From a virus, in IMG/VR virus record IMGVR_UViG_3300045284_000120, positions 1 through 44,073 of that record: 44,073 nt of DNA. One strand, written 5' to 3'. Below are positions 34,988 to 42,365 of this stretch, one piece after another; positions within the stretch are counted from its first letter, which is position 1, and each line of letters opens with the position of its first letter. The translations under genes were made by a program, and so were the position numbers. The notes beneath the pieces were generated by a model. It did no database searches and was not told where the DNA came from. It saw nothing but the letters and a program-made list of their open reading frames with translations.

Positions 34988-36799
34988 ATGAGCCTTTACG
35001 GGCTACTCGATAGACAAGGTTTTCCGACTTGGTTCGGCACCGAGCTGAACGGGCCGGGCTGGTACGACGAAACGCTCGTTGATGCCGGGCCTAATAAAGT
35101 CATAACACCGTTAACTGGCTCGCTGAATATTTCGGGAGCTGCACCAGGGATTCCCGTCCAAATCACTCCTGGTACGGGAATACTTCGCTTCGGGCTTAAC
35201 TCCTACGGTATTAACGCGAGTGCCGGCAGTTTGGCGATTACCGGCTACGCGCCGACCGTTCAAGTTTCGTCAGGGGTTACGATCACGCCGGCGACTGGCT
35301 CTTTAATGATTGTCGGCGTGGCACCAAGCACGCGGCAAAACATATTCATTACGCCGGCAACCGGAACCTTGACGATTACCGGCAACCCACCAACGCTGGC
35401 AACGCCTATATCAATAACCCCGTCGGTGGGTGCTTTAACTTTGGTGCCAATCGCGCCGACAATGTTGCAGAACGCTATCCGTGGGCCGCCCGCCGCTGCG
35501 TTGGCCCTAACCGGTGCTGCTCCGACTCTCATCACAGACACCCGCATCACGCCAGCCGCCGGCACCTTGACGCTAACCGGCATTGCGCCGACCGTCCAAG
35601 TCTCTTCCGGCGGTAATACTAATATCACTCCGCTAGTCGGCTCGCTTACCATAAGCGGTCTAGCGCCGTCCCTTATCCGCGGCACTATAATCACGCCGAC
35701 GGTTGGGGCGCTGACGCTTGCCGGGGCTGCGCCAACCGACGTGATCGGAACCATAATCACGCCTGCGGCCGGCGCTCTTACGCTTGCCGGTAACGCGCCG
35801 ACCGATGTCGCCGGAACACTCATTACCCCGACAGCCGGCGCTCTAACCCTAACCGGCAACGCGCCGGGCATAATCGAAAGTAAATCGGTAACACCGCAAA
35901 CCGGCACGCTTACCATTACCGGATTTGCGCCGACCTTCCCTGGCGCTACCAATATCACGCCGCAAACAGGCGGTTTAACGCTCTCAGGTGCCTCACCTAG
36001 CCTAGCGTTTCAAAACATCGTAATACCATTAACCGGAACGTTATCGTTAATTGGCGGGGCGCCTGCGCTTGTTACAGATACCCGTTTGACGCCTTCGGCG
36101 GGTGCCCTGGCGATTTCTGGTAATACGCCGGTTGATATTGTCGACACAAGGATAACCCCAGCCGCCGGTTCCCTGATTTTTACCGGTTTTCAGCCGAGTT
36201 CCGCGGGCGTCATCATCCCTGGCACCGGCTCGCTAGTCATTACCGGAAATCAGCCGGGGGTTAGATTCACCATTACGCCGACAACTGGCTCTCTAAGTTT
36301 CACGGGAAACGCGCCAGCCGTCCTTCAAAGCCGCATCATTACCCCAATTGCAGGGACATTGACGGCAAGCGGCGTTGCGCCGTCACTATTCAAAGACAAC
36401 CGAATCCAACCGGCTCAGGCTGATCTAGCTATCATCGGCAACGCGCCAACTATGGCGCTGGCTATCCGGCCGCAGGCCGGGGCGCTGGCAATCAGCGGGG
36501 TTGCGCCGGCTGCGATTCGAAGCAATGTCATCCGGCCGTTGGTAGGGGTGCTAACCTTAACCGGCAACGCGCCGACCCTGGTATCCATTTCCGTTAGGCT
36601 GTTTACGCCGGGTACGGGTTTGTTGACGATTACTGGCGGACAGCCGACCGTCAACACGACGCAGCCGGAAATCACATTTTTGCTAGATTTGGTTTCGGAA
36701 GTAGTCCAAATAACCGAGATTCAATCTGATATTGTCGCCGTGGTGGAGCTGGAATCGGAAACCGTCATTATTGTCAAAATTGAGTCGGAGGTAACATGA
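34988..36799 (+). CDS. Repeat protein of about 22 x 22-residue units
   Basis: 603 residues. After MSLYGLLDRQGFPTWFGTEL it consists of about 22 units, each about 22 residues, with consensus ITPxxGxLxxxGxAP. Examples: ITPATGTLTITGNPPT, ITPTVGALTLAGAAPT, ITPTAGALTLTGNAPG. The pattern suggests a beta-solenoid or stacked hairpin rod, probably a long fibre shaft. The last 50 residues (LLDLVSEVVQITEIQSD) are an unrelated Glu/Val-rich tail. Overlaps the next gene by ATGA. Confidence 0.88.
   Translation: MSLYGLLDRQGFPTWFGTELNGPGWYDETLVDAGPNKVITPLTGSLNISGAAPGIPVQITPGTGILRFGLNSYGINASAGSLAITGYAPTVQVSSGVTITPATGSLMIVGVAPSTRQNIFITPATGTLTITGNPPTLATPISITPSVGALTLVPIAPTMLQNAIRGPPAAALALTGAAPTLITDTRITPAAGTLTLTGIAPTVQVSSGGNTNITPLVGSLTISGLAPSLIRGTIITPTVGALTLAGAAPTDVIGTIITPAAGALTLAGNAPTDVAGTLITPTAGALTLTGNAPGIIESKSVTPQTGTLTITGFAPTFPGATNITPQTGGLTLSGASPSLAFQNIVIPLTGTLSLIGGAPALVTDTRLTPSAGALAISGNTPVDIVDTRITPAAGSLIFTGFQPSSAGVIIPGTGSLVITGNQPGVRFTITPTTGSLSFTGNAPAVLQSRIITPIAGTLTASGVAPSLFKDNRIQPAQADLAIIGNAPTMALAIRPQAGALAISGVAPAAIRSNVIRPLVGVLTLTGNAPTLVSISVRLFTPGTGLLTITGGQPTVNTTQPEITFLLDLVSEVVQITEIQSDIVAVVELESETVIIVKIESEVT
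35090..36660 (+). repeat. About 22 degenerate 66-bp repeats
   Basis: DNA counterpart of the repeat protein; the period is near 66 bases with some units a codon or more longer or shorter. Units share ITPxxGxL and GxAP codons but differ widely in DNA, so the array is old. Confidence 0.85.
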
Positions 36800-37146
36800 G
36801 CATACAAATCGTTGATTCCTTACAGGCGGGCGTCGTCGGGGCGATTATCCGCGTGACTTGCGTCCGACCCCAAACAGCCGCGGAAAAGGCCAGCGGCGCG
36901 GCGCGCGTGCCTATAGATATTTCGGCGACTACCGTCAAAGAGTTGATTTTCCTCAAGCCGAGCGGATTGGTTGTTACTAAGACAGCGGTCTTTACTACGG
37001 ACGGCGAGGACGGCGCGCTGCAATGGGTAACACAGGCGGGCGACGTTGAGCCGTGGGGCACTTACGTTGTGCAGCCAAATATTGCTATTCCCGGTTTTAC
37101 CGGGCGCGGGCAGCGCGTGCCGGTTGAGGTGCTGAAGAATCTCTAA
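36796..37146 (+). CDS. BppU/Ig-like baseplate-type protein
   Basis: 116 residues, last gene of the rightward late block. Sequence with GAIIRVTCVRPQTAAEK, KELIFLKPSGLVVTKTAVFT, GALQWVTQAGDVEPWGTYVV resembles the N-terminal domain of upper baseplate proteins, a beta-sandwich attached to fibres. Ends head-on against the leftward operon with a 4-base stop overlap. Confidence 0.72.
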   Translation: MSIQIVDSLQAGVVGAIIRVTCVRPQTAAEKASGAARVPIDISATTVKELIFLKPSGLVVTKTAVFTTDGEDGALQWVTQAGDVEPWGTYVVQPNIAIPGFTGRGQRVPVEVLKNL

Positions 37147-37700
37147 TTGCAGCCCAAATCATTCATTACGTTGTATTGCGCCCCTATTAAGCTATCAGTC
37201 CGGCTATACTTGCCAGCGTTGAGCCGAGTCATTATTTCGTAATAGATATCCCTATTGGTGACCGGTAATCCAGGCTTGCACCGCAGCCCGTTTTGCTGGG
37301 CGGTGTTAGATATCTCAGCAACGTAGCGCATCGCGTAATCCTGCGGCACTCGTGAAAAGGTGTTAATTGTTGCCTTGTTGGCATCCGGTATCGTCATTAG
37401 ACCAAAAAAGCCGTAGGGACGATTTGGATCTAGGGCTTCAGGGGGTACGACGAGGGGCGGGATGATGAAAAAGCAGGATTGCGTTAATAGGAGAATTGCG
37501 ATCAGAAATAATGTTTTCATAAAATATTTTGATGTTACCTTATTTAATTCTTCCAATGCTGAGAGATTGTCTATGCAATTGTGTTCGGGAACCCTCAAGA
37601 CAATTGCGTCGTTTGAAGTAATGTCGACCCATTCGCGTCTTCCGTCACTATTTATATATCGTCTGCCACAGAGTGCGCAAATTTTCGTTGATTCATTCAT
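37143..37700 (-). CDS. Zinc-knuckle ORF with internal secreted-protein start
   Basis: Minus strand, 185 residues from ATG at 37700. N-terminal part has CALC and a later HNC that could bind zinc. An internal ATG at 37520 begins MKTLFLIAILLLTQSCFFII, a signal peptide with a lipobox-like LLTQSC, preceded by AAGGTA. A signal peptide works only at an N-terminus, so the 125-residue form from 37520 is probably the main or second product. Mature part has VVPPEALDPNRPYGFFG. Function unknown. Confidence 0.65.
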   Translation of the reverse strand: MNESTKICALCGRRYINSDGRREWVDITSNDAIVLRVPEHNCIDNLSALEELNKVTSKYFMKTLFLIAILLLTQSCFFIIPPLVVPPEALDPNRPYGFFGLMTIPDANKATINTFSRVPQDYAMRYVAEISNTAQQNGLRCKPGLPVTNRDIYYEIMTRLNAGKYSRTDSLIGAQYNVMNDLGCN

Positions 37701-37758: not shown

Positions 37759-38154
37759 TTAACGTTCATAATCGGTGCGGCCGGGATATTCCAGGCTACC
37801 TTTCAAGCGGGATATGCGACGGCGCACTTGGTCAACAGTTTCCTGTTTATTCTCTGACAGAGCAGCGGTTAGCATCTTTATCTCGTTCTGGATTTCTTCT
37901 GACAACCGACGAATCCGATCCTTCAAAGCAGCATTCTCGGCGCGCAGGTCAGCCACGCCTGCTTTGATTTTGCCAATTATGTCATCGGGCGTGCGCTTCC
38001 GGTTAAACTCAGGGCGCGGGTACTCCTTAATGATCGTAACTGTCTCATCGTCGGTTGGCATGACTTGCGCTTGAGCAACTTCGGAACCTTTGCCATAGGC
38101 GGACAAGGAACGACTGATAATGTCGTCTTGGTTAACCTTGTAAGTGCTTGGCAT
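37759..38154 (-). CDS. Coiled-coil protein
   Basis: 131 residues on the minus strand; start codon follows the previous stop (TGAAATG). N-terminus MPSTYKVNQDDIISRSLSAY, a hinge (PRPEFNRKRTPDD) and a C-terminal coiled coil about residues 60-115 (LRAENAALKDRIRRLSEEI). Part of the leftward operon; perhaps a regulator or partner of the repressor-like protein. Confidence 0.7.
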   Translation of the reverse strand: MPSTYKVNQDDIISRSLSAYGKGSEVAQAQVMPTDDETVTIIKEYPRPEFNRKRTPDDIIGKIKAGVADLRAENAALKDRIRRLSEEIQNEIKMLTAALSENKQETVDQVRRRISRLKGSLEYPGRTDYER

Positions 38155-38155
38155 T

Positions 38156-38401
38156 TCAGAAGAAACTCGTTGTAACGTCTGATAAGATATACAATGAAAG
38201 CAAGTACTTAGAGCGCATCTTTAGTGCCGAGTTATGTAAACTTCGTTTATTCCTGTCCCGATTTCCGCCTCTGATGGCTCTCAGCTTGGCCCGGCGAAAT
38301 ATGATTTTTATCTCGCTGTGTAATCTTATGAACTGAGCGGGAGTTAACGTCCTTAGATATCGCGCCAGCTCCGTGTCGTTTAATGATCCTCGTCGCATCA
38401 T
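38156..38401 (-). CDS. Small basic protein overlapping the repressor-like gene
   Basis: 81 residues, minus strand. Strong ribosome site AAAGGAG just before the tandem start ATGATG (38401, 38398). MMRRGSLNDTELARYLRTLT reads like a helix-turn-helix start, then basic helices and a hydrophobic C-terminus (YLLSLYILSDV). Stop sits one base before the next start. It overlaps the last 155 bases of the 38247-38660 gene in another frame. Confidence 0.6.
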   Translation of the reverse strand: MMRRGSLNDTELARYLRTLTPAQFIRLHSEIKIIFRRAKLRAIRGGNRDRNKRSLHNSALKMRSKYLLSLYILSDVTTSFF

Positions 38402-38660
38402 TCAACTCCTTTGGTTGTTGAGATGCAGACTTCTTAATCAATTCTTGTGCCGGATCAATTCCCAATTCCTCACATAGCGGAAGCAGCTTCATAATAATCA
38501 CCGTAAACAGCTTTTCTTGATTCCTACCGGCGACAATTAAGCGCCGCGCGTCCATTTCTCCCACGTCTAAAACTCTTGCCAGCGCTCTTGGGCGCTGCGT
38601 TTCGGGTAATTCTGGAAACTTTTTTTCGATTATTTCTGCAATGATTTCTTTGAGTTTCAT
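38247..38660 (-). CDS. Repressor-like helix-turn-helix protein
   Basis: 137 residues, minus strand, first gene of the leftward operon and divergent from the early operon. RPRALARVLDVGEMDARRLI has the LA-x2-L-x-V-x4-A-x2-L pattern of a helix-turn-helix. The N-terminal half (ELPETQ, EELGIDPAQELI) is convincing; the Lys/Arg/Gln-rich C-terminal part overlaps another gene and may not be needed. A Cro/CI-type role in the switch is inferred from position. Confidence 0.65.
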   Translation of the reverse strand: MKLKEIIAEIIEKKFPELPETQRPRALARVLDVGEMDARRLIVAGRNQEKLFTVIIMKLLPLCEELGIDPAQELIKKSASQQPKELNDATRIIKRHGAGAISKDVNSRSVHKITQRDKNHISPGQAESHQRRKSGQE

Positions 38661-38689
38661 AGGCCGTTAATTTATCTCTAAAAAAGTTG

Positions 38690-38718
38690 TTGACAAATTT
38701 TTACGTTATCGTTATAGT
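38690..38718 (+). promoter_or_regulatory. Rightward early promoter
   Basis: Near-perfect sigma-70 promoter: TTGACA at 38690-38695, 17 bases, TATAGT at 38713-38718. It fires into the gene at 38768. The best promoter in the window. Confidence 0.85.
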
Positions 38719-38755
38719 TTTTGTTATCAATTCAACAATAACGCTAACCATAACG
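38704..38755. promoter_or_regulatory. Operator-like CGTTAT/ATAACG cluster
   Basis: CGTTAT at 38704-38709 and 38710-38715, TGTTAT at 38722-38727, and the inverted copies ATAACG at 38738-38743 and 38750-38755. The cluster overlaps both promoters and has 12-base steps in each half, a layout expected for repressor binding. Confidence 0.65.
38711..38738 (-). promoter_or_regulatory. Possible leftward promoter
   Basis: On the minus strand TTGTTG (38738-38733) and TATAAC (38716-38711) are 16 bases apart and overlap the rightward promoter. Would drive the gene that begins at 38660. The -35 match is weak. Confidence 0.4.
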
Positions 38756-38767
38756 GAGAATACACTA

Positions 38768-38965
38768 ATGGCACTGAAAAGGAAACGCCTCAAGAAGAGA
38801 ACTTGCCCGGTTTGCGATAAGCGATTTCAGCCCAAAAACCCGCGAAAGATTTACGACAGCAATCTATGTGCCATGAAGTTATATCGCTGGCGTGTGGCGC
38901 AAAAGCTCGAACGGTTGGCGGAGTTGGAGCGGGGAGCGGCGGTAATAACCCAAGCTACAGGTTAA
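38768..38965 (+). CDS. Early zinc-finger protein
   Basis: 65 residues from ATG 38768 with GGAG upstream; an upstream in-frame TTG at 38687 lies in the promoter and is rejected. Basic start ALKRKRLKKRT, then CPVCDKRFQPKNPRKIY, a common phage zinc-ribbon. The second pair is normally C-x3-C or similar; here YDSNLC has only one Cys, so zinc binding may be incomplete. Likely DNA-binding, first early gene. Confidence 0.78.
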   Translation: MALKRKRLKKRTCPVCDKRFQPKNPRKIYDSNLCAMKLYRWRVAQKLERLAELERGAAVITQATG

Positions 38966-40793: not shown

Positions 40794-40999
40794 CAATCAC
40801 TTACCGTGAATTTATCCATTCACTATTACTCGGCGCAAGGATGCTGGACGAAACTTGCCCGCAGATAAAAACCGAGGACATCATTTGGCGAATGTGGTCG
40901 TTCGACGATGCTGGTGTGCATTACATCGAGCCGGAAGAACGGGACAAACAAAAGTGGAACGCATGGCGACCGTATATCGACGCAGGGGTGAGACAATGA
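40790..40999 (+). CDS. Early hypothetical protein
   Basis: 69 residues. MTITYREFIHSLLLGARMLD and then acidic, aromatic sequence (RMWSFDDAGVHYIEPEER, WNAWRPYI). Overlaps both neighbours by ATGA. No family recognised. Confidence 0.68.
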   Translation: MTITYREFIHSLLLGARMLDETCPQIKTEDIIWRMWSFDDAGVHYIEPEERDKQKWNAWRPYIDAGVRQ

Positions 41000-41205
41000 C
41001 GCGGGAACAAATAGAAAAGGCATGGGCTAACAAACCTTTACCAGATGACAATCTGTTCCTTGATGGACTTGTGGTGGAGTTTGCTATTGATCAAATCAAC
41101 CTCGCGCTCGAAGAAGTGGCGCTTATTGTTGGTAATCAAAAATGGTCACTCGAAACGACTTATGCACAAAAAGTCCGCGCCCTGAAAATCGGAGAAGCAC
41201 AATGA
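40996..41205 (+). CDS. Tandem paralogue 1 (QINLALEE protein)
   Basis: 69 residues: MTREQIEKAWANKPLPDDNL and AIDQINLALEEVALIVGNQ, ending VRALKIGEAQ. Shares MTR, QINLALEE and RALKIGEA with the next gene, also at DNA level. A small helical protein of an early tandem pair. Function unknown. Confidence 0.72.
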   Translation: MTREQIEKAWANKPLPDDNLFLDGLVVEFAIDQINLALEEVALIVGNQKWSLETTYAQKVRALKIGEAQ

Positions 41206-41417
41206 CGCGGAAAGATTTAGAACAGGCAGTCTACGAAGAATCGCATAACGGGGATTTTCAGTTTGTTCCTTGGTCGAATGCCTGCGTTATTAACTTCACC
41301 ATCCAGCAAATCAACCTCGCACTCGAAGAGGCGGCGAAAGAAATCGAGGGTACTCCATACGCAAATAGCGCAGGACCGCGATTAATCCGCGCCCTGAAAA
41401 TTGGAGAAGCAAAATGA
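41202..41417 (+). CDS. Tandem paralogue 2 (QINLALEE protein)
   Basis: 71 residues: MTRKDLEQAVYEESHNGDFQ, then TIQQINLALEEAAKEIEGTP, ending LIRALKIGEAK. Clearly a duplicate of the gene just upstream. The two genes are joined by an ATGA overlap. The C-terminal codons are nearly identical between the copies. Confidence 0.72.
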   Translation: MTRKDLEQAVYEESHNGDFQFVPWSNACVINFTIQQINLALEEAAKEIEGTPYANSAGPRLIRALKIGEAK

Positions 41418-41918: not shown

Positions 41919-42365
41919 ATGAACGTAAAAATAGAGGCAGCAACAAGGGAATTAAGGCCGCTCAAGGGCGCACGTCCAGGATCGCAGCTTTATACCGGCC
42001 TAAAGATCGGCGGAAGTTGGTACAACCTAGCCGGCGATCACCGCAATCTTTACAACAAGGTCGTGGATCTCGAACTTGACGGCAACATGGCGAGCTTCGC
42101 ATCGCCACAAACACCACCGGCACTACACCAAGCACCGCCACCGCCTCCACCACCCGCGGCAATGAACGGACACACACCGCGCTGGCCGAACCGCGAGGCC
42201 GCGGTTGATGCCTATGTGTTCTATGCAACGCAGGTCAGTAAATACATCAGCGATCCTTACGCCATTGCGAAGGCTGCGAACTGCCTTATTTCGATTGAGA
42301 GTAACGGCGAGATAAACCCGGTGCATCGTGAAGGCGTGGCCGAGCCGTTTCGAGGGGCGGCATGA
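41919..42365 (+). CDS. Two-domain protein with polyproline linker
   Basis: 148 residues with AGGAAGGA upstream. N-terminal 65 residues are beta-rich (LKIGGSWYNLAGDHRNLYNK), then a linker with seven consecutive Pro, and a helical C-terminal domain (PNREAAVDAYVFYATQVSKY). Overlaps a RecB/Cas4-type nuclease by ATGA. This layout is suggestive of a single-strand DNA-binding or recombination partner, but no motif proves it. Confidence 0.65.
   Translation: MNVKIEAATRELRPLKGARPGSQLYTGLKIGGSWYNLAGDHRNLYNKVVDLELDGNMASFASPQTPPALHQAPPPPPPPAAMNGHTPRWPNREAAVDAYVFYATQVSKYISDPYAIAKAANCLISIESNGEINPVHREGVAEPFRGAA

Follow-up and report, generated by a model that had tools for sequence, protein, structure and literature searches.

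What does the 107-bp gap at 38661-38767 of this viral record control, and which protein acts on it? The window analyzed here is the whole record of 44,073 nt. Genes for terminase, portal and an HK97-type major head protein lie at its left, and the structural genes run rightward up to about 37146. A cluster of three leftward genes (38660-37143) follows, and the gap, at 29% GC, divides this cluster from rightward early genes that begin at 38768 and include an HNH endonuclease and a Cas4/RecE-like exonuclease (42362). The record is a fragment of an incomplete genome and comes from an unclassified environmental tailed phage, a siphophage-like virus; between 30000 and 44073 it has no DNA-level match in 50,697 phage records. 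Statistics, position and synteny in one relative all give good support to a regulated divergent promoter region in the gap. We regard it as a real phage control region of a familiar, ordinary kind, most likely a repressor site that silences early genes. The genes on either side are:

37143 to 37700, minus strand: third left-cluster gene, lipoprotein-like, with 46% identity to L004:3345-3683 (L004 being the relative described below).
37759 to 38154, minus strand: second left-cluster gene, a predicted coiled coil with low-confidence family matches only.
38247 to 38660, minus strand: left gene, 137 aa, the proposed cognate regulator, in the position of an XRE-like protein of L004.
38768 to 38965, plus strand: gene that opens the rightward early set, encoding a zinc-finger-like product of 65 aa, with its counterpart at L004:4598-4816.

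Within and beside the gap, the following control elements were read from the DNA:

38690 to 38695 and 38713 to 38718, plus strand: rightward early promoter, -35 TTGACA, 17 bp, -10 TATAGT (11 of 12 consensus bases).
38696 to 38691 and 38674 to 38669, minus strand: candidate leftward promoter, TTGTCA, 16 bp, TAAATT (9 of 12 consensus bases).
38704 to 38755, no strand: proposed operator array, GTTAT at 38705, 38711 and 38723 on the plus strand and ATAAC at 38738 and 38750 (GTTAT on the minus strand).
38754 to 38759, plus strand: a good Shine-Dalgarno, CGGAGA, of the 38768 gene, found by direct reading and overlapping the last GTTAT-type motif.

The rightward promoter is the top sigma70-like site of the whole window, scoring 13.8 against 12.3 for the runner-up on a simple, approximate position weight matrix built from general knowledge, and its predicted start lies at about 38725. 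The leftward promoter is the weaker of the two. Its -35 element consists of the complementary bases of the rightward -35 element, and because these bases are shared the two promoters should compete for polymerase. Leftward transcription is predicted to start at about 38662, about 2 nt ahead of the ATG of the 38660 gene, which has no Shine-Dalgarno sequence; the leftward mRNA may therefore be leaderless. Direct reading around the -35 element at 38690 revealed no TTGC pair of the kind that forms a CII-type site (TTGC-N6-TTGC).

The array itself is symmetric. Four of its five words are full CGTTAT, the word at 38722 being TGTTAT; plus-strand words follow each other at 6 and 12 bases, the two minus-strand words at 12. 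The words at 38711, 38723, 38738 and 38750 form an exact nested dyad, GTTAT-N7-GTTAT-N10-ATAAC-N7-ATAAC, centered at 38732.5, and the fifth (38705) sits one hexamer outside it. Owing to the 6-bp period there is also a second register at about 38729.5, with imperfect 27-nt arms (38699-38725 and 38734-38760) in which GTT recurs every 6 bp. Five GTTAT/ATAAC words within 50 bp were reached in none of 2000 dinucleotide-shuffled versions of the gap (shuffle mean 0.62), and the densest 60-bp stretch elsewhere in the window holds two. Across the window, exact GTTAT-N7-GTTAT occurs twice, both times in the array, and exact GTTAT-N10-ATAAC is likewise confined to the array; CGTTAT itself is not enriched (27 occurrences, 28.6 expected). 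The gap's best inverted-repeat score was equalled by 3 of 2000 shuffles and is exceeded in two other regions of the window; the dyad score is thus unremarkable alone and becomes remarkable when taken together with the number of words and the presence of the promoter. No second operator was found. When viral contigs were scanned with the arm pattern CGTTATNGTTANNGTTNTTGTT, 18 loci came up, none of them a comparable array; most matches fall within long open frames, as Asn-rich or simple repeats, and the few that do not are tandem repeats of a simple kind.

The array covers the rightward spacer, -10 element, start and leader, up to the Shine-Dalgarno sequence. It lies upstream of the leftward core promoter (38696-38669) and is clear of it, the nearest motif being centered about 45 bp upstream of the leftward start. 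The original prediction of a near-consensus rightward promoter, an overlapping leftward promoter and five CGTTAT-type motifs is borne out by these observations. Its 12-base motif spacing, direct and inverted, is correct for both strands but leaves out the spacing of 6 on the plus strand, and the motifs that it placed over overlapping promoters do cover the rightward promoter and leader but not the leftward core promoter. Folding of the transcript from the rightward promoter is ordinary (z +0.85), which argues that the repeats act as DNA and not as a leader RNA hairpin; such a hairpin was also rejected because the predicted transcript begins where the left arm ends.

On balance we lean towards an early control region in which the product of the left gene binds the array and blocks the rightward promoter. 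RNA polymerase would start rightward at about 38725 and transcribe the early genes from 38768 onward, the exonuclease gene at 42362 among them. A phage repressor, most likely the 38660-38247 product, would occupy the GTTAT array from the rightward spacer and -10 element to the leader and ribosome-binding site, and the filled array would then block the rightward promoter. The leftward promoter, lying outside the array, would stay usable or might even be activated with the array filled. Sequences, spacings, statistics and a layout, though not a motif, conserved in one relative are what is shown; we infer the identity of the binder, the responses of the promoters, where transcripts start and whether there is a tie to lysogeny.

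The left protein has no usable homologue in viral contigs, genomes, phages, PDB, Pfam, PHROGs or NCBIfam, and no family, structural match or confident helix-turn-helix (HTH) was detected. Structure models built from single sequences reached low confidence (pLDDT 58 and 60), and searching with their folds gave no match at E <= 0.001. An 81-aa ORF on the minus strand (38156-38401) shares DNA with the end of the left gene, read in a different frame, and ends just short of the next gene. Codon statistics favor the 38247 frame and not this ORF, and a continuation of the left gene into it was rejected.

The preference for the left protein as binder derives from L004, the sole syntenic relative (91% protein identity at the exonuclease), whose protein in the corresponding position looks XRE-like. 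The layout of L004 matches that of the window: genes for a probable regulator, for a second protein and for a lipoprotein point left, and a zinc-finger gene points right. Its left protein, L004:4454-4122, matches HTH_37 (E 1.7e-4, below the curated cut-off), HTH_3 (E 0.005) and several PHROG transcription regulators (E 0.0015 and weaker), and a low-confidence model places helices at residues 3-14, 18-25 and 29-37; it is probably a Cro/CI-type (XRE) regulator. BLASTP gave no alignment between the left proteins of the window and L004, and the first rightward proteins are 27% identical. The intergenic DNA of the two aligns well only at the left edge and over the promoter, where L004 has TTGACC-17-TATACA with the same spacing of 17. 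The GTTAT array is not kept in L004, which retains only CGTTATA of the -10 region and carries TATGCGTTA twice, 58 bp apart, in its gap. Such a difference would be expected if operator and repressor had diverged together, a process that two sequences cannot demonstrate.

Less probable, yet deserving serious consideration, is that repression or activation at the array is due to a different binder. This could be a regulator encoded in the part of the genome that the contig lacks, a factor of the host, or the 38768 protein in control of its own promoter. The lack of a detected HTH in the 38247 protein and the incompleteness of the contig speak for this, as do the small size, basic character and single CxxC motif of the 38768 protein; the probable XRE regulator in the counterpart position of L004 speaks against it, as does the weak likeness of the 38768 protein to NinG/HNH-type zinc segments. 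No Cro-type HTH was found in the first rightward gene, whose product is zinc-finger-like, and from its sequence the 38768 protein is an unlikely partner of the array.

A more specific version of binding by the left protein is doubtful. Here the 38660-38247 product would be a new small repressor without a recognisable HTH; it would polymerise along the 6/12-bp GTT repeats in both orientations and cover the early promoter from either side of the dyad. More generally, if the left protein does bind the array, the locus would add a small repressor that acts on short direct and inverted repeats and not on a classical palindromic operator. The gap offers a testable control region for uncultivated phages that lack close relatives in the phage collection searched, and the left protein is a candidate repressor without known homologues.

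We consider it improbable that the excess of words is a by-product of back-to-back -10 elements and of local duplication by slippage (CGTTATCGTTAT), without a protein dedicated to binding them. A minus-strand TATAAC does read as GTTATA on the other strand, a perfect 6-bp duplication accounts for two of the five words, and L004 retains only CGTTATA, at its -10 element. Promoter elements, however, have no need of the three other words, the 12-bp spacings or the exact dyad, and these stand above dinucleotide shuffles. Least probable of all is that the inverted array belongs to a replication origin, as iterons or as a hairpin in single-stranded DNA, and is not an operator: the DNA is AT-rich (29% GC) with GTT repeats of period 6, and a 62-nt stretch folds, when single-stranded, into one hairpin (-13.9 kcal/mol, z -4.2), but the sole match to a DnaA-box-like consensus in the whole window lies 2.4 kb off at 41160 with no cluster near the repeats, no skew switch occurs at the array, no replication gene was recognised among the scanned neighboring genes, and the array falls exactly on a near-consensus promoter.

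Repression of the early promoter by the left protein can also be compared with known switches. In the OR region of lambda, with its PR and PRM promoters, divergent promoters are combined with an operator array over the early promoter, the nearest site lies at about -45 of the leftward start, and the leftward mRNA is possibly leaderless. The window resembles lambda in each of these respects, having at the level of sequence divergent early and repressor promoters with a putative operator over the early one, a nearest site at about -45 leftward and a possibly leaderless mRNA. In contrast to lambda, it has no 17-bp CI operators, no Cro and no recognised CI, its promoters share -35 bases, and its half-sites lie 15 bp apart center to center, which is not the classical CI spacing. 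Of the lambda-type decision region originally proposed, the regulated divergent promoter region stands, whereas the decision overreaches, given a single array, no recognisable CI or Cro, no tyrosine integrase and an L004 gap without the motif. Tyrosine integrase (PF00589) was not found in the contig or in five relatives, all of which are fragmentary records, and a lysis/lysogeny decision is unproven because neither such an integrase nor a second operator was found.

Repeats in both orientations are unusual for a lambda-type dimer, and by analogy P2 C, SinR and ArdK may serve as precedents. The 99-aa C repressor of P2 binds direct repeats that flank the -10 element of Pe, so that the P2 Pe/Pc region resembles the window in having a small early repressor and direct repeats around an early -10 (PMC4752584). 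P2 C is, however, a known HTH protein, whereas the 38247 protein has no family assignment. The P2 region contains a pair of 8-bp repeats at a distance of 22 bp, whereas the array in the window consists of five pentamers in direct and inverted orientation, with spacings of 6 and 12 bp; no two direct repeats flank the early -10 of the window at a distance of about two turns of the helix. SinR of Bacillus subtilis, an XRE-type protein, recognises GTTCTYT operators in varying number and orientation, and like the window it presents a short GTT-type motif, direct and inverted, over promoters (PMC3163267). It is a host biofilm regulator, though, with a motif and spacing unlike those of the window and no detectable homology to the 38247 protein. 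ArdK binds direct and inverted repeats alike (PMC9723621). The Apl sites of phage 186 offer a further likeness, being direct repeats that lie between pR and pL at a distance of about one turn of the helix (PMC7498355), but in the window no excisionase-like gene or att site was found. By analogy only, the left-cluster lipoprotein recalls the superinfection-exclusion lipoproteins that belong to lysogeny modules, such as Ltp of TP-J34 (PMC3952083). The part of this lipoprotein in common with L004 starts at an internal Met (residue 61), and the first 60 aa are absent there.

L002 and L003, retrieved through the 38768 protein, were rejected as spurious since they show no further similarity, and L005 ends short of the control region. 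L006-L010 have one early gene in common with the window and a different control region; no counterpart of the left cluster was detected in this group, and a search for prophages in bacterial genomes with the shared early gene found nothing. A small rightward XRE-type gene (L006:4041-4265) lies among the early genes of the same group. Two repeats elsewhere in the window were also observed: a 66-bp tandem repeat of 2.8 copies (35680-35865) within a repetitive structural protein gene (34988-36799), and a tandemly duplicated short gene at 40993-41417, whose segments lie about 206-215 bp apart and are 79-94% identical (e.g. 41174-41205 and 41386-41417).
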